This document shows, in pieces, positions 19,419-28,061 of a DNA stretch of 64,000 nt. The notes under the pieces are model-generated. The model was not told the origin of the DNA and searched no databases. It saw only the letters and a list, made by a program, of their open reading frames with translations. Within the stretch, counting starts at the first letter, position 1, and each line of letters begins with the position of its first letter. Where the stretch lies: assembly GCA_937899415.1 (NCBI GenBank), contig CALBPI010000057.1:62001-126000 (forward strand). The letters are read 5' to 3'. Both the position numbers and the translations under genes were made by a program. The DNA is from an uncultured Gammaproteobacteria bacterium (lineage in GTDB: Bacteria > Pseudomonadota > Gammaproteobacteria > Steroidobacterales > Woeseiaceae).

Positions 19419-19985
19419 TCAGGCGCGCGGGACGGTGACGCCCGTCTGGCCCTGATACTTGCCGCCGCGGTCCGCGTAGGACACGGCACAGTCTTCATCG
19501 GACTCGAAAAACAGCATTTGCGCGACACCTTCGTTAGCGTAGATTCGCGCGGGCAACGGGGTGGTGTTCGAAAACTCAAGCGTGACGTGACCCTCCCACT
19601 CGGGTTCCAGCGGCGTCACGTTAACGATGATGCCGCAGCGGGCATAGGTCGACTTGCCCAGGCACACGGTCAGCACGTTGCGCGGAATCTTGAAGTACTC
19701 GACGGTACGCGCCAGTGCGAACGAGTTGGGCGGAATGATGCAGGTGTCATCATTCATGTCGACAAAGCTCGCGTCATCGAACTCCTTGGGGTCGACGATC
19801 GTCGAGTGCACGTTGGTGAACACCTTGAACTCGGGCGCGCAGCGTACGTCGTAGCCGTAGCTCGAGACGCCGTAAGACACGAGGCGCCTGCCGTCGGATT
19901 CACGGACCTGGCCGGCTTCGAACGGCGAGATCATGTCGTGTTCCTGCGCCATGCGCGTGATCCAGCGGTCGGATTTGATGCTCAT
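19419..19985 (-). CDS. dcd: dCTP deaminase
   Basis: Dcd converts dCTP to dUTP, feeding dTTP synthesis through dUTPase. The 188-residue length is standard. Key segments are [40 protein letters not shown], the catalytic Glu in [19 protein letters not shown], and the C-terminal [19 protein letters not shown]. The start ATG 19985 shares one base with the mrp stop (TGATG). dcd-mrp linkage is also found in Pseudomonas. Confidence 0.97.
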
Positions 19986-21067
19986 CAGGTGTCCTCGACG
20001 ACAATTTCAGGAAAGACGTGGCTCGAGTCGCGGCGGCCTGCGGCCAGGGCGGCGCCCGCGGCGATGGCAACCGTGCGGTAGGCGCGCGCAGCGGCCCCAT
20101 CGGGGTCCGACACCACACTGGGTCGACCGCTGTCCGCAGCCTCGCGAATATCCATGGCCAGGGGCAGCTCGCCCAGCAACTGCGTGCCTGCCTCGGCGGC
20201 CAGTCGCTCGCCACCGCCCTCACCAAACAGCGACGTGACGTCGCCGCAAGCCGGGCAGACGTACACGCTCATATTCTCAACGATGCCCAGGACGGGCACG
20301 GAGACCTTGCGGAACATCTCCAGACCCTTGCGGGCGTCGGTGAGCGCCAGGTCCTGAGGCGTAGTGACAATCACGGCACCCGCCACGGGGACCGTCTGTG
20401 ACAGGGTGAGCTGGATGTCGCCCGTGCCGGGCGGCATGTCCACGACCAGTACGTCGAGGTCACCCCAGCGTGTCTGGCGCAGCAGCTGATTCAGTGCCGA
20501 AGTCACCATGGGGCCACGCCAGACGGTGGGCGCCGCCTCGTCGACGAGAAATCCGATCGACATGACCTCCACACCGTGCGCCACAAGCGGCTTCAGCGTT
20601 TTCTCATCGGCCGCCTCGGGCGCCGCACCGACGAGCCCCATGAGGCGTGGCATCGACGGGCCGTAAATGTCGGCGTCGAGCAGTCCCACGCGCGCGCCCT
20701 CGGCGGCCAGCGCGAGCGCCACGTTGGCGGCCGTCGTCGACTTGCCCACACCGCCTTTGCCCGAAGCCACCGCGATGATGTTGCGCAGGCCCGGCAACGG
20801 CTTGAGCCGTCGCTGCACCCCAAATACGGGCATGTCGAGCGCGATGTCGAGCGGTTCGGGCAGGACACCACCGCACGCTGCCGCTGCTTCCTTCACTGCG
20901 CGTTCGAGTTCGAACCAGAGGCTCCGGCACGGAAAGGGCAGCCGAATGATCGGTGCGCCCGAATCGTCGTAGCGAAGCGCGTTGAGTGCCGCCAGTGTCA
21001 GGTCCGTGCCGGGCACGGTCACGTCGCCGAGCGCCGCGGCCAGCGATGGGTCGTATGTGGTCGTCAT
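19985..21067 (-). CDS. mrp: Mrp/ApbC-family iron-sulfur cluster carrier ATPase
   Basis: A 360-residue P-loop ATPase that carries and transfers 4Fe-4S clusters. A short MIP18/DUF59-like N-terminal domain (to about residue 80) precedes the deviant Walker [19 protein letters not shown] (about 100-117), [14 protein letters not shown] and [16 protein letters not shown]. The cluster-binding CxxC is in [20 protein letters not shown] chose ATG 21067; the longer open frame upstream is unsupported. In E. coli, mrp and metG are divergent neighbours. Here about 5 kb with a kinase and two PilT-like genes separates them. Confidence 0.95.
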
Positions 21068-21135
21068 GAGCAGGTGGGTGCCCCTTGAGGCAGGGCGTGA
21101 GTGTATCTGAATTGCGAAGCCCGTCACATTTCAGT

Positions 21136-21189
21136 AGCCAGCCTCCGGGGGAGTGTGACGCACCCCGCATTCCCGCGGGGTCGGTGGCT
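21136..21189. other. Structured intergenic segment with nested inverted repeats
   Basis: In the 259-base gap between divergent mrp and the HEAT-kinase gene, ACCCCGC (21162-21168) and GCGGGGT (21175-21181) form a perfect 7-bp stem with a 6-base loop. AGCCA (21136-21140) and TGGCT (21185-21189) can pair outside it. There is no downstream T-run. It could be a protein-binding site or the 5' part of the mrp transcript. A second imperfect GC-rich inverted repeat lies at 21230-21249. Confidence 0.45.
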
Positions 21190-21195
21190 GCGTTA

Positions 21196-21204
21196 TGGCA
21201 TACT
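21196..21204 (+). promoter_or_regulatory. Extended -10 promoter element for the HEAT-kinase / PilT cassette
   Basis: TGGCATACT is identical to the element before wrbA. A start about 7 bases downstream would give a leader of roughly 115 bases that includes the imperfect inverted repeat at 21230-21249. Confidence 0.42.
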
Positions 21205-21326
21205 CACGTGCGCACTGTAAGGATATGTTCCCGCACCCCTGTGGGCGGGATTTTGGGCGATCTCGGAGCACTAAAAGATACTTAGCTGCACGGCCGCGAT
21301 GGACTGTGCCGCGACACTGAGCACGA

Positions 21327-23729
21327 ATGAAGTTTCTGAGCGCCTACAAGGCCGACAGGCTCATCGAGCAGTTGATGTCTGAGGAAGACATCTACTCGCC
21401 GAAAGCCGAAAAGGCCTCCGACAAGCTACGCAGGCTCGGTCCCGGGGCAATCCCGCGGATCACCGATGCGTTGGCCGGTGCCGACAAGAAACACACGATG
21501 GCGCTTGTCGATATTCTGAGCGAGCTCGCCACGACCCAGACCCTCATGGCATTTGTGCCTGGTTTGTCCGACGGCGACCAACGAGTCGTTTCGGGTACAG
21601 CCTGGGCCCTGTCGTCGAGCCAGAAGGTTGAGCCGACGGCCGTGCTCAAATTGCTCGACGAAGACGAAGTGTCGCCCGCTGCGGTCCTCGAGATCGTCAA
21701 CACGCATAAAGACCGGCTTTCTGTGCCCGCGCTGCTGTCGCGCGCCTACGAACTCGAGCCCAATGAGCAGTCGGTGCTGTTTCGCATCATCGGCGGCGTC
21801 GTCAGGGAAGAACACGTACCCGATCTCCTCGCCCGCCTGACGGGCAAGGACCCGATGGTTCGCATCCACATCATCGACATGCTGTCGCGATTTGACCGTC
21901 CCGATGTCTCCGCAGCGCTCGAAGGCCAGCTGCGCAGCAACCACAAGATGATCCGCCAGTCCGCGCTCACAGCACTGGCACGCCAAAAGAGCGCGAGCAA
22001 CATAAGGCTCATATGCTCGCTGCTGCTCGACGCCGACGTCGACGTCCAGAACAAGGCCGTCGACGTGATCGTCAAGCTCAACCATAAAGACACGATCAAG
22101 CACCTGATTCCCGCGCTCAAGGACGAAAACGAATACGCCCGGCGCGCGGCAGTCGAGGTGCTCAACGAGATCGGAACACCCGATTCCATCAAGGATCTGC
22201 TCAACGCCGTTCGCGACGATGACTGGTGGGTACGTGCGCGCGCCGCCGACGCCCTGGCAGACATTGGCGGTCCGCGCGTGGTCAAGGCCGTGATGAAACT
22301 GGTTAAGGATGACGACCAGGAAATTCGCCGCGCGGCCGTTGAAATCCTGAACGCCACTAAAGACCCGCAGGCCATCGACCACCTCATCTCGGCCACCAAG
22401 GACGACGACTGGTGGGTGCGCGAGCGCGCCGTTGATGCGCTGGCAGAAATCGGCGACACACGTGCCGTGCCTGTACTGTCCGGCATGCTCGGCAAGCACG
22501 ACAAATCGGACCCGACCGTTATTCGCGCGCTGGGCAAACTCGGCGCCACAGACATCGTGCCCAAGCTCAAGCCCATGCTGGCCAAGGGTGGCCGCGAAGT
22601 GCGCGTCGAGGCCATGAAAGCCATGGCGATGCTCGTCAGCGAAAAAGAGCTGCCGGCCGTGCGCGATGAGCTGTTGCGCATCCAGGACGGCGGCGACAAG
22701 GCGCTGGCTGAGGCGGCCGACATCGCACTCGAGACACTACAGACCCGGTTCTCGGACGTCGTACGCGAACAGGACCGCAAGGCCGCAAAGCTGTCCGAGG
22801 GACAGGCTGCCACACTGCTTATCGACGAAGAGGAAGCCCGCCAGGTTATCGAGCGCGTCGAAGCCGAGACGGCCGCGGCGCAGGGCCCGCTCGACATCTC
22901 GACCCTCAACGAGGGCGACATGCTCGAAAACCGCTACCGCTTCGTGAAGCGTATCGGTAAGGGCGCCTTCGGCACTGTGCTGCTCATGGAAGACACGGTT
23001 GTCGGCGAGCAACTCATCCTCAAGTTCCTGAACCCCAACGTTTCCTCCGACGAGGAAATGATGAAACGCTTCGTGCACGAACTGAAGTTCTCGCGCCGGA
23101 TCACGCACCCAAACGTCATCCGTATCTACGATTTTCTGCACATCCAGGGCAACTACGCGATCTCGATGGAATATTTCGAGTCGCACACACTGGGCGCTGA
23201 GATCGCGGCCGAGAAACCCATGGATTTCGCCAAAGCGCTGCGCTTCGCCAAGGATATTGCCACCGGCATGACCGTCGCCCACACCGCGGGCGTCATCCAC
23301 CGCGACTTGAAGCCGGCCAACATCCTCATTGACGACACGGGCCTGCTCAAGATCGTGGACTTCGGTGTGGCGGCTGCAGCGAAGAGCGGCGACACGCAGC
23401 TTACCAAGACGGGTTACGTCATCGGCTCGCCCAAGTACATGGCGCCCGAGCAGATCCTCGGCAAAAAGGTCGAGGAAACGGCCGATATCTACAGCCTCGG
23501 CGTCATCCTCTACGAGATGATCACGGGCACCCCGCCCTACACGCGCGGCGACCACATGTCGGTCATGTACCAACACGTGCAGGGCAAGGCGGCAGGCTGT
23601 CAGGAACTCAACGACAAGATCCCGGACGACCTGGCCACCCTCGTTGGCCAGCTTATGACGGTCGACAAGGACAAGCGCCCGCAGTCCATGCACGACGTCC
23701 GCGAGGCGCTGGAGGCCATCCAGGTCTAG
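21327..23729 (+). CDS. HEAT-repeat / serine-threonine protein kinase fusion
   Basis: An 800-residue, apparently cytosolic protein. Residues ~1-480 are tandem HEAT (PBS-lyase type) repeats; two copies contain the same DDDWWVR motif (about residues 298 and 360). A short linker leads to a complete Hanks-type kinase domain (about 535-798). It has the Gly loop IGKGAFGTV, Lys566 in LILKFLN, HRDLKPAN with Asp660, DFG with Asp678 and GSPKYMAPEQIL. All catalytic residues are present, so it should phosphorylate Ser/Thr. There is no transmembrane segment. The kinase is C-terminal, unlike many bacterial kinases with N-terminal catalytic domains and external sensors. Two PilT-family ATPase genes follow on the same strand, so pilus retraction motors are likely partners or targets. 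The start is ATG 21327. Confidence 0.93.
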   Translation: MKFLSAYKADRLIEQLMSEEDIYSPKAEKASDKLRRLGPGAIPRITDALAGADKKHTMALVDILSELATTQTLMAFVPGLSDGDQRVVSGTAWALSSSQKVEPTAVLKLLDEDEVSPAAVLEIVNTHKDRLSVPALLSRAYELEPNEQSVLFRIIGGVVREEHVPDLLARLTGKDPMVRIHIIDMLSRFDRPDVSAALEGQLRSNHKMIRQSALTALARQKSASNIRLICSLLLDADVDVQNKAVDVIVKLNHKDTIKHLIPALKDENEYARRAAVEVLNEIGTPDSIKDLLNAVRDDDWWVRARAADALADIGGPRVVKAVMKLVKDDDQEIRRAAVEILNATKDPQAIDHLISATKDDDWWVRERAVDALAEIGDTRAVPVLSGMLGKHDKSDPTVIRALGKLGATDIVPKLKPMLAKGGREVRVEAMKAMAMLVSEKELPAVRDELLRIQDGGDKALAEAADIALETLQTRFSDVVREQDRKAAKLSEGQAATLLIDEEEARQVIERVEAETAAAQGPLDISTLNEGDMLENRYRFVKRIGKGAFGTVLLMEDTVVGEQLILKFLNPNVSSDEEMMKRFVHELKFSRRITHPNVIRIYDFLHIQGNYAISMEYFESHTLGAEIAAEKPMDFAKALRFAKDIATGMTVAHTAGVIHRDLKPANILIDDTGLLKIVDFGVAAAAKSGDTQLTKTGYVIGSPKYMAPEQILGKKVEETADIYSLGVILYEMITGTPPYTRGDHMSVMYQHVQGKAAGCQELNDKIPDDLATLVGQLMTVDKDKRPQSMHDVREALEAIQV

Positions 23730-23733
23730 GCAC

Positions 23734-23759
23734 CCCGGTCTGCGCCGGGTTCTCATTTT
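23734..23759 (+). terminator. Weak stem-loop with T-rich tail after the kinase gene
   Basis: CCCGG (23734-23738) pairs with CCGGG (23745-23749) around a 6-base loop and is followed by TTCTCATTTT. The stem is only 5 bp, so it may attenuate rather than fully stop transcription into pilT. It falls in the 81-base gap before the first ATPase gene. Confidence 0.45.
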
Positions 23760-23810
23760 GCGTATTCAGCACTTGCGCAGCGCGTGCAGGTGGTTGATAT
23801 TCGGGCCGCT

Positions 23811-24905
23811 ATGGCACGAATCGACGCCTTTTTGAAGCTGGGCCTGGCCCAGGGCTGTTCCGACGTCCACCTGGCTGTCGGGGTACCGCCCATGCTGCGC
23901 ATGAACGGCGATCTCATGCCGATCAAGTTCCGCGACCTGGCCGACCACGAGCTCAACAATTACGTGGCCGAGATTCTGACCCAGTCGCAGCAGGCCGCGT
24001 TTGATGAAGGCAACGACCTCGACTTCTCCTATGTCACCGAAGACGGCGGCCGTTTCCGCGTCAACCTGTTCCGCAAGGACACGGGCGTCGGCGCCGTTTT
24101 CCGGAGCATTCCAAGCGAGATTCCGACACTCGAGAGCCTGGACCTGCCGCCCGTCATCGAGACCTTCCTCGACCACCACCAGGGCATGGTGCTCGTGACG
24201 GGTTCAACGGGTACGGGCAAGTCCACAACGCTCGCGGCCATGATCAACCACCTGAACATGACGCGGAATCTCAACATCATCAGTCTTGAGGACCCGATCG
24301 AGTTTGTGCACCCGAGCCGCAAGGCACAGGTCATTCAGCGCGAGCTCAACACACATGTGAAGAGCTTTGCGGGCGGCGTTCGCGCGGCCATGCGCGAAGA
24401 CCCCGACGTCATTCTCGTCGGCGAAATGCGAGACACAGAAACCATTTCGATGGCGATGACCGCGGCCGAAACGGGTCACCTCGTGCTGGGAACCCTGCAC
24501 ACGACCTCCGCCGTCAAGACCATTGACCGAGTCATCGACGCGTTGCCCGGCGAATTGCGTGAACTGACCAAGGGCTTCCTGTCACAGAGCCTCTACGCCG
24601 TCATCACTCAGGTGCTCGTCAAGACACCGGGCGGTCAGGGCCGACGCGGCATCCAGGAAATCCTCGTCAACACGAAGGCTGTTGCCAACCTGATCCTCAC
24701 GGACCAGACGCACCAGATCAACGCACAGATTCAAACGGGTATGGACGTCGGCATGCAGACCATGGACCAGGCACTGCTCGCTGCCATCGAGAAGCGCCAG
24801 GTCGATCCCGATGACGCGTTCCGCTACGCCGCAGACAAACGCAAGATCCAGCGCTACGTGCCCGACACCTCGATCCTGCCCAAGCTCGATATGGCGCGCG
24901 GTTAA
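23811..24905 (+). CDS. PilT-family type IV pilus retraction ATPase, copy 1
   Basis: A 364-residue hexameric secretion-type ATPase expected to drive pilus retraction at the inner membrane. The N-terminal domain (GCSDVHLAVGVPPMLRMNGD) is PilT-like. The core carries Walker A TGSTGTGKSTTLAAM, an Asp box/Walker B pair (LEDPIEFVH and DVILVGEMRDTETI) and the His box GHLVLGTLHTTSAVKTIDRV. The C-terminal motif that reads AIRNLIRE in classical PilT is AVANLILTD here, so it is a divergent paralogue. The charged C-terminus (KRKIQRYVPDTSILPKLD) extends beyond classical PilT. I chose ATG 23811; a GTG at 23784 would add nine residues. It does not look like PilU. Confidence 0.92.
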   Translation: MARIDAFLKLGLAQGCSDVHLAVGVPPMLRMNGDLMPIKFRDLADHELNNYVAEILTQSQQAAFDEGNDLDFSYVTEDGGRFRVNLFRKDTGVGAVFRSIPSEIPTLESLDLPPVIETFLDHHQGMVLVTGSTGTGKSTTLAAMINHLNMTRNLNIISLEDPIEFVHPSRKAQVIQRELNTHVKSFAGGVRAAMREDPDVILVGEMRDTETISMAMTAAETGHLVLGTLHTTSAVKTIDRVIDALPGELRELTKGFLSQSLYAVITQVLVKTPGGQGRRGIQEILVNTKAVANLILTDQTHQINAQIQTGMDVGMQTMDQALLAAIEKRQVDPDDAFRYAADKRKIQRYVPDTSILPKLDMARG

Positions 24906-24909
24906 GCGG

Positions 24910-25995
24910 ATGGCAACTGCTGAAGAACGCACACCGCGACGTATTGACGCCTTCCTCGACGAGGTCATGCGCGCCGACGGGTCCGACCTGCACTTCATGG
25001 CGGGCGATCCCGCCCGGATCCGTGTCCATGGAGAGCTGCGTTCGCTGCCCGGCGACGAACTGAACCAGGCGCAGGTTTCCGACGCACTCTACGAAATCAT
25101 GTCGCCGGCCATCCGGCGCGAGTTCGAGGCCAACGATTCAGCGGATTTCGCCTACGAGATTCCCAACCGGGCCCGGTTCCGCGTCAACGTGCTGCGCCAG
25201 CTCAACGGCATGGGCGCCGTGTTCCGAACGATCCCGACCAAGGTCCTCACGATCGAGGACCTTGACTTGCCCGACGCCGTCGAGCGCCTCTGCCGGCAGC
25301 CATCGGGCATGATCCTTGTCACGGGCAAGACGGGCTCGGGTAAGTCGACCACGCTCGCGGCCATGATCAACGAGCTCAATGACCGCATCAAAGGTCACAT
25401 CCTCACCATTGAGGACCCCATCGAATTCGTCCACCACCGCAAGGGCTGCCTGATCAGCCAGCGCGAGATTGGGCGCCACAGCCCGAGCTTCGCCGATTCG
25501 CTGCACTCGGCCATGCGAGAAGACCCCGATGTCATTCTCGTGGGCGAGATGCGCGATCTCGAGACGATCCAGATCGCCGTCACTGCGGCCGAGATGGGCA
25601 TCCTCGTGATGGGGACGCTGCACACCAACGGTGCCGCGCCCACCATCGACCGCATTATCAACTCCTTCCCGCACGACAAGCAGGGTCAGATTCGCACGAT
25701 GCTGTCGACCTCGTTGCGCGGTGTGATTTCACAGCAGCTGATCCCGACCAAGGGCAAATCGGGCCGTGTCGCAGCGCTGGAGATCATGGTCAACACACCC
25801 GCCATTTCGAACCTGATTCGACAGGGCAAAATCGACCAGCTCGAGAACGCGATCCAGTCGGGTGGCGCCCAGGGCATGCGCACGATGGACTCCGCACTCA
25901 TGGACCTCTACGACCGTGCCATGATCACGGGCCAGAACGCCTACGAGGCGGCCATCAACAAGCAACGCTTCATCCCGATCAAGGACAAGCAATAG
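24910..25995 (+). CDS. pilT: PilT-family type IV pilus retraction ATPase, copy 2
   Basis: A 361-residue ATPase of the same family, starting 4 bases after copy 1. It has GSDLHFMAGDPARIRVHGEL, Walker A TGKTGSGKSTTLAAM, IEDPIEFVHH, DVILVGEMRDLETI and MGTLHTNGAAPTIDRI. The C-terminal AISNLIRQGKIDQLENAIQSG is close to the classical PilT AIRNLIRE motif, so this copy is nearer to canonical PilT. Both Walker motifs are intact. Two PilT-like copies rather than a pilT-pilU pair, directly behind a kinase, suggest a specialised motor pair. The frame is open upstream, but ATG 24910 gives the family N-terminus. Confidence 0.92.
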   Translation: MATAEERTPRRIDAFLDEVMRADGSDLHFMAGDPARIRVHGELRSLPGDELNQAQVSDALYEIMSPAIRREFEANDSADFAYEIPNRARFRVNVLRQLNGMGAVFRTIPTKVLTIEDLDLPDAVERLCRQPSGMILVTGKTGSGKSTTLAAMINELNDRIKGHILTIEDPIEFVHHRKGCLISQREIGRHSPSFADSLHSAMREDPDVILVGEMRDLETIQIAVTAAEMGILVMGTLHTNGAAPTIDRIINSFPHDKQGQIRTMLSTSLRGVISQQLIPTKGKSGRVAALEIMVNTPAISNLIRQGKIDQLENAIQSGGAQGMRTMDSALMDLYDRAMITGQNAYEAAINKQRFIPIKDKQ

Positions 25996-26004
25996 GCGAG
26001 CGCG

Positions 26005-26013
26005 TGGCATAAT
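26005..26013 (+). promoter_or_regulatory. Extended -10 promoter element for metG
   Basis: TGGCATAAT lies 29 bases before the metG ATG and 9 bases after the second PilT gene's stop. It is one mismatch from the elements before wrbA and the HEAT-kinase gene. No clear -35 box is seen. Confidence 0.48.
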
Positions 26014-26042
26014 GCGCCGAGTTTTTGAGCCTCGACGCTTTC

Positions 26043-28061
26043 ATGCCTTCAGACACCCACAACGCGTCCCGTCGCATCCTCGTATCCAGCGCCCTGCCGT
26101 ACGCCAACGGCGATATCCACCTGGGCCATCTCGTCGAGTACATCCAGGCCGATATCTGGGTTCGTTTTCAGCGCCTGCTCGGCCACGAGGTGTACTTCGT
26201 ATGCGCGAGCGACGCACACGGCACGCCCATCATGATCCGGGCCCGCAAGGACGGCGTCGAACCGGAAGCCGTCGTCGCTCACTACCAGCAGGCGCACGTC
26301 ACGGACTTCGCCGCGTTCGGCGTCGTATTCGATAACTTCAACTCGACGCACGCCGACGAGAACCGCGAGCTCGTCTACGACATCTACGGCAAGCTCACCG
26401 ACGCCGGGCACATCTACACCAAGACCATCAACCAGGCCTACGACGAGGCCGAGAAGATGTTTCTGCCCGACCGCTTCGTGCGCGGCACCTGCCCCGTGTG
26501 CAGCACCGAGGACCAGTACGGTGATGCCTGCGAGAGTTGCGGCAGCACCTACACGCCCGCGGACCTCAAGGATCCCGTCTCGGTGCTGTCGGGTGAAGCG
26601 CCCGTGTGGCGCGACAGCGAGCACTACTTTTTCAAGCTCGGCGAGTTTGAAGCCTTCCTCAAGGACTGGCTCGACGGCGCCGGGCTCGACGACAGCGTGC
26701 GCAAGAAGCTCAGCGAGTGGTTCGAGGCCGGACTGCAGGACTGGGACATCTCGCGTGACGCGCCCTACTTCGGCTTCGAGATTCCAGGCGCCGAGGGCAA
26801 ATACTTCTACGTCTGGCTCGACGCACCCGTGGGCTACTTCGGCAGCTTCAAGGCGCTCTGCGAGCGCGAGGGCAGGGACTTCGCGCCCTGGCTCGCGCCC
26901 GATACCGATACGGAGCTCTACCACTTCATCGGCAAGGACATCGTCTACTTCCATTCGCTGTTCTGGCCGGCCGTGCTGCAAGGGGCGGGGATGCGCACGC
27001 CCACGAGCGTGTTCGCGCACGGCTTCCTCACGGTTGACGGCAAGAAGATGTCCAAGTCGCGCGGCACCTTTATCAAGGGCCGCACCTACCTCGACCACCT
27101 CGACCCTGAGTACCTGCGTTACTACTACGCCGCGAAGCTCGGCCCGGGTATCGACGACATCGACTTAAACCTCGAGGATTTTGTCAGTCGCGTGAACGCT
27201 GATCTCGTCGGCAAGCTTGTGAATATCGCGAGCCGCTGTGCGGGCTTCGTGCACAAGAACAACGACGGCAAGCTCGCCGATGTGCTGCCCGACCCCGAGC
27301 TTTACCAGTCCTTCGCCGACGCGGGCGACACGATCGCGGGTCATTTCGACCGTCGCGAGTACTCGAAAGCCATCCGCGAGATCATGGCGCTGGCCGATCG
27401 GGCCAACCAGTACATCGACGCCAACAAACCCTGGCAGATGGTCAAGGACGAGGCGCTGCGCGACGCGGTACCGGGAGTCTGCACGCAAGGGCTGAACCTG
27501 TTCCGCGCGCTGGCCGTCTATCTCGCGCCCGTATTGCCAGCTCTGGCCGACAAAGCCCGCGAGTTGTTTGGTGAAGACACGTGGCAGTGGGACAGTGCCG
27601 CAGCGCCACTCACGGGCACGCCGATCACGAAATTCAAACCCATGCTCACACGCATTGACGACAAGCAGGTGGCCAAGATGGTCGACGCTTCGAAAGACAG
27701 CGACACGCCGGCGCCCGCCGCTGCCAGCGACGAAGACACGATCGGCATCGACGACTTCATGGCCGTCGACCTGCGCGTCGCCCGCATCGTCAAGGCCGAG
27801 CATGTTGAAGGTGCCAACAAGCTGATCCGCGTGCAGCTCGATGTCGGCGCGCTTGGCCAGCGTCAGGTGTTCGCGGGCATCAAGTCGGCCTACGACCCGG
27901 CCGCGCTCGAAGGCCGACTCACGGTCATGGTGGCCAACCTCGCGCCGCGCAAGATGCGTTTCGGTCTGAGCGAAGGCATGGTGCTCGCGGCGGGCGACGG
28001 CAAGGGCATCTTCCTGCTCTCGCCCGACGACGGCGCCGCGCCAGGCATGCGCGTCAAGTAA
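26043..28061 (+). CDS. metG: Methionine--tRNA ligase with C-terminal tRNA-binding domain
   Basis: A 672-residue class I synthetase that charges initiator and elongator tRNA-Met. The HIGH-like motif is in [19 protein letters not shown], the zinc knuckle is [19 protein letters not shown], and the KMSKS loop is in [13 protein letters not shown]. After a short linker (about residues 545-567) comes the EMAP/Trbp111-like OB domain ([20 protein letters not shown] to the C-terminus), which improves tRNA binding. I chose ATG 26043; a TTG at 26025 is less likely. rnfA follows 15 bases after the stop, so the Rnf operon may be read from the metG promoter. Confidence 0.97.

Follow-up and report, generated by a model that had tools for sequence, protein, structure and literature searches.

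A conserved gene unit of a HEAT-repeat Ser/Thr kinase and two PilT-family ATPases in Gammaproteobacteria

The timing of type IV pilus retraction has largely been studied through PilT and PilU, chemosensory systems and second messengers. In a 64,000-nucleotide stretch of an uncultured Woeseiaceae genome (hereafter, the window), a first-pass annotation made from the sequence alone singled out a Ser/Thr kinase gene followed by two genes for PilT-type ATPases, and read the three as a cassette inserted between mrp and metG that could place retraction motors under phosphorylation control. Are these genes a unit, how did they come to lie at this site, and does the kinase act on the motors?

The open reading frames and their spacing are as described there. 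All three genes lie on the plus strand: a HEAT-repeat, Hanks-type Ser/Thr kinase of 800 residues (positions 21327..23729) and two PilT-family ATPases of 364 and 361 residues, which we call pT1 (23811..24905) and pT2 (24910..25995), with a spacing of 4 nt between the pT1 stop (24905) and the pT2 ATG (24910). This triad is flanked on one side by the divergent mrp/apbC gene for an Fe-S carrier ATPase (19985..21127, minus strand; identified by PF10609 and synteny) and on the other by metG (26043..28061, plus strand; identified by a nucleotide match to E. coli metG), which starts 47 nt past pT2. The E. coli counterparts of these two flanking genes are indeed divergent and directly adjacent, with nothing between them. 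The further statement that the window holds no other pilus genes stands for T2SSE/PilT-type ATPases, the scope that was checked; the genome's other six lie on other contigs.

The proposed extended -10 element of the unit's own found no support, as its best candidate (TGG-CATACT at 21196-21204) has only 4/6 matches, and a sigma-70 scan of 20900-26200 returned no promoter-like site. A terminator scan placed two terminator-like hairpins between the kinase and pT1 (23734..23792, plus strand) and one after pT2 (26000..26017, plus strand; GCGCGTGGCATAATGCGC with a T-rich tail), and counted five such hairpins in the region where chance would give 3.5. The gap that holds the pair is 81 nt long, which is above the usual for this operon (across triads, medians of about 9 nt from kinase to pT1 and 17 nt from pT1 to pT2, both measured to the first aligned residue); attenuation is a possible role for the pair, as is chance.

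The kinase and its two motor paralogues

The kinase has strong Pfam matches to HEAT_2 (E value 2.6e-77) and Pkinase (2.4e-54), and its AlphaFold model (built on a 16-sequence alignment, with a pTM of 0.48 and low-confidence loops in the kinase-domain part) comprises a HEAT solenoid at roughly residues 1-475 and a kinase fold at roughly 530-798, joined by a disordered linker. The catalytic Lys, Glu, HRD Asp, Asn, DFG Asp and APE Glu that define Hanks-type kinases are all there, as K566, E585, D660, N665, D678 and E708, and are present in 60/60 alignable orthologues. The best Foldseek matches of the model are PknA, PknB and Stk1, with which it shares the fold, the catalytic residues and a conserved activation-loop Thr. 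Unlike them, it has no visible membrane segment or PASTA domain, but a long N-terminal HEAT solenoid and a tie to pilus-type motors. Inspection of the sequence and the model revealed no membrane helix, and the kinase is apparently cytosolic. The architecture is not in itself a sufficient marker of the triad: two HEAT-kinase paralogues in family f146 (loci L193 and L194; 28-29% identity) sit beside a clpB-like gene, in a neighbourhood that lacks PilT-type genes, and form a sister kinase subfamily in another context.

Both ATPases are T2SSE proteins in Pfam and score well above the cut-off of TIGR01420, the NCBIfam model of PilT/PilU type 4a motors (416 bits for pT1 and 442 for pT2, against 319.1). 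Among solved structures, the nearest to them is that of a twitching-motility PilT, chain 3jvu, which we take to be P. aeruginosa PilT, and the Walker A, Asp box, Walker B and His box motifs are conserved in the 61 pT1 and 58 pT2 sequences compared. In a joint tree of the PilT family, however, they form two clades of their own (support 100 for pT1 and 98 for pT2), separate from each other and from the grouping that holds 3jvu and the PilT of the pilT-pilU locus; nor do they group with PilU, as both fall on the PilT side with a support of 100. The canonical PilT motif AIRNLIRE is altered in both, though related, with a consensus of AVANLIRxGK in pT2 and AIAxLIxxDKTHQ in pT1. By these sequence criteria, pT1 and pT2 are dedicated paralogues and stand apart from PilT as well as from PilU.

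A tandem of adjacent PilT-family ATPases with intact Walker A, Walker B, Asp and His boxes recalls the canonical retraction pair of type IVa pili, in which PilU works only with PilT (PMC6762196). The pT1-pT2 pair differs from it in comprising two clades outside PilT and PilU, and in having a kinase gene fixed to it while the genome's pilT-pilU genes lie elsewhere. Besides these, the genome encodes PilM and a PilQ that scores over its cut-off, together with three PilB/GspE-type ATPases and several secretins. At the canonical pilus locus, which is separate from the triad (L046, 6320-9640), the three PilT-family genes are pilT, pilU and a third, PilU-like gene that is also found in relatives and in many distant genomes. 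One study, whose main text is silent on kinases, reports the twitching genes PilTIJU from every one of its Woeseiaceae MAGs (PMC12175321).

The motors might serve another type IV filament machine, such as an MSHA-like pilus or a type II secretion-like system, and not the main type IVa pilus. The three PilB/GspE-type ATPases and several secretins imply more than one machine in the cell, and pT1 and pT2 do lie outside the PilT clade; even so, we regard this as quite unlikely, given that both score as type 4a motors, that a twitching-motility PilT is the solved structure closest to them and that PilM is strong in 41/44 kinase genomes of the class survey described below. That last count is only weakly informative on co-occurrence with pili, since the class background is itself high (315/370).

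Linkage and age of the unit

We surveyed an even sample of 370 gammaproteobacterial genomes (in the GTDB sense), and found the kinase in 46 of them, two of which carry the 28-29% paralogues, and pT1 in 42, spread over 24 families. The pT1 calls score at least 429 bits and are set off by a clear gap from the next matches, at 352 bits or less. All 42 pT1 genomes carry the kinase (hypergeometric p of about 4e-51, ignoring relatedness), and the remaining two kinase genomes (G178 and G282) are fragmented, with a contig ending within the triad in both. Chance neighbourhood of kinase and motors is rejected by this class-wide co-occurrence. In the five families of mixed presence (f49, f99, f103, f116 and f119), kinase and pT1 are present or absent together. 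A phylum-wide search of 397 genomes, a sample that favours other lineages, returned only the window's genome.

The three genes also stay linked at different sites. Outside the window's order, kinase-pT1-pT2 is intact at 33/35 loci, none of which has mrp or dcd nearby and one of which has metG. In the two exceptions, both from family f17, the kinase stands by itself and pT1-pT2 is found on a separate contig; as both parts are retained, the functional linkage has outlived the gene linkage. Elsewhere in the class the unit is found after glyA-nrdR-rib-nusB-thiL-pgpA in some families, after metG-rnf-nth in genome G129, and at other sites (metG and rnf were named by match to the window's genes; the other names, including nth, are our assumption from reading the sequences). 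In G129 (family f119, locus L174), only one short ORF separates the module from metG-rnf-nth, at the opposite end of the block that the window's triad precedes, a position that hints at a local rearrangement or at a site preferred by the module. The two checks that the first-pass annotation had proposed, co-occurrence of the three genes and their presence as a unit at different loci, thus both came out in its favour: kinase-pT1-pT2 is a real, fixed unit that is old and, in parts of the class, widespread.

A comparison of the three protein trees, likewise proposed there, found them similar. Over 59 triads, patristic distances correlate at 0.89 for kinase and pT1, 0.68 for kinase and pT2 and 0.62 for pT1 and pT2, and none of 2000 permutations reached values as high. 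Such agreement is expected of co-inherited genes and is by itself no proof of interaction. The window's order forms one clade in both the kinase and the pT1 trees.

The adjacency of mrp and metG in E. coli, and the presence of the unit at several different loci in the class, would be in keeping with a mobile cassette recently acquired at this site. Among 20 relatives of the window's genome, 18 carry the kinase; the other two have small genomes (1.6-1.8 Mb) with no PilT-family match at 1e-50. The site is the same in 18/18 of the kinase-bearing relatives as far as their contigs reach, with dcd-mrp to one side of the kinase and pT1-pT2-metG to its other, and the same arrangement occurs in MAGs labelled Woeseia/Woeseiaceae, Steroidobacteraceae, Chromatiales or Gammaproteobacteria and in Thioalkalivibrio sp. 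XN8. A few loci deviate from this gene order, among them L075, with no mrp or metG match, and L116, where dcd is inverted. The patchy presence at the site among close relatives that would mark a mobile cassette was not seen, and phage carriage was rejected, as a kinase search of viral contigs gave no match. A recent acquisition is therefore unsupported: the mrp-triad-metG arrangement is ancestral in the whole order, which is what the first-pass annotation itself had named as fatal to its cassette reading, and together with the single clade of the order in the kinase and pT1 trees and the lack of a viral-contig match this leaves the recent cassette highly improbable. The E. coli adjacency still suggests that the triad did enter, long ago, and the simplest history, a likely one, has a single early insertion at the root of the order.

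Partner genes and the case for phosphorylation control

An open search of the neighbouring genes, and not a test fixed beforehand, brought up recurrent partners at the 33 intact loci outside the window's order. A DUF6812-like gene lies directly upstream at 28 of them, a PP2C gene upstream at eight and an FHA-GAF-HD gene upstream at six, while an FHA or cyclase-FHA gene follows downstream at 23, either adjoining the triad or within one to two genes. The DUF6812 assignment is weak (25.5 bits against a Pfam cut-off of 27.1, with no match for a second member). The gene itself is found in 31 of the 370 class genomes, all of which carry the kinase, and is directly upstream in 30 of these. Since phosphothreonine is the ligand of FHA domains and PP2C enzymes act as Ser/Thr phosphatases, such neighbours are to be expected around a phosphorylation pathway, and their presence beside the triad outside the window's order fits phosphorylation control.

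In the window's order, a profile search of the relatives found no DUF6812-like gene, although the same profile matches 31 class genomes and so is able to detect it, and no FHA or PP2C gene adjoins the window's copy of the triad. The locus thus does not display the full pathway, which counts against phosphorylation control of the motors, as does the fact that co-expression by itself could account for a conserved gene order. Outside the window, but on the same contig (L221, contig C57, at about 14.8-18.6 kb), there is a separate kinase-PP2C-FHA cluster, some 65 kb from the triad and flanked by radA- and alr-like genes; it encodes an FHA protein with 32% identity to the triad-linked FHA proteins.

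Two known systems resemble this arrangement in part. In type VI secretion, the kinase PpkA, the PP2C phosphatase PppA and Fha make up a phosphothreonine pathway, and there too a kinase is encoded with PP2C and FHA genes beside the motor genes of a large machine; in the triad, by contrast, the motors are of the PilT type, and FHA and PP2C are optional and absent beside the window's copy. In Sulfolobus, the FHA protein ArnA, ArnB, the kinases ArnC and ArnD and PP2A regulate archaellum expression (PMC4307647), another case of a type IV filament that is controlled through Ser/Thr phosphorylation and an FHA protein. That network acts on expression, whereas the triad kinase is in an operon with the motor ATPases themselves. 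We found no published description of the triad in the open-access literature, an absence that is weak evidence.

The shared operon could also have another job, in which kinase and motors are co-expressed for one machine but the kinase acts on an FHA, FHA-GAF-HD or other pilus or secretion component and not on the motors. As partners in phosphorylation, the FHA and HD-domain neighbours are the more obvious candidates, and positions with a Ser or Thr specific to pT1 or pT2 are few. Kinase-pT1-pT2 nevertheless persists without FHA or DUF6812-like neighbours, both in the window's order and elsewhere, and we consider this alternative rather unlikely. One of the few specific positions is Thr267 of pT2, in a column with Thr or Ser in 98% of pT2 sequences and a consensus of Glu in PilT, Gln in pT1 and Leu in PilU. 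Judged from this one alignment column, the replacement of Glu by Thr makes Thr267 an attractive candidate for a phospho-switch site.

We propose, as the best-supported reading, that the triad is an ancient operon, inherited vertically, which places an accessory pair of retraction-type motors of type IV pili under phosphorylation control; we judge the chances of this reading to be evenly balanced. The kinase would be held in place by its HEAT solenoid and would phosphorylate pT1, pT2 or an adaptor on Ser/Thr, with pT2 Thr267, where canonical PilT has Glu, as a candidate phosphosite; FHA proteins would read the mark and PP2C would remove it. At the base of the pilus, phosphorylation would then act as an on-off switch for the additional motors, as a supplement to canonical PilT and PilU. 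The phosphorylation control first guessed at from the window gains more support from these findings than the window alone could give. The stronger form of the proposal, in which a widely conserved, dedicated Ser/Thr pathway acts directly on retraction-type motors and the HEAT-repeat kinase switches pT1-pT2, for example through Thr267, we put forward tentatively, as a possibility with the balance somewhat against it.

With the kinase locked to its own motor pair in 24 sampled families, direct phosphorylation control of a pilus motor becomes testable, the more so as phospho-reader and phosphatase genes lie near the triad in many of them. The triad also gives a likely context to two clades of PilT paralogues that family models name only as PilT/PilU, and to the DUF6812-like proteins, for which a function may follow from the kinase.
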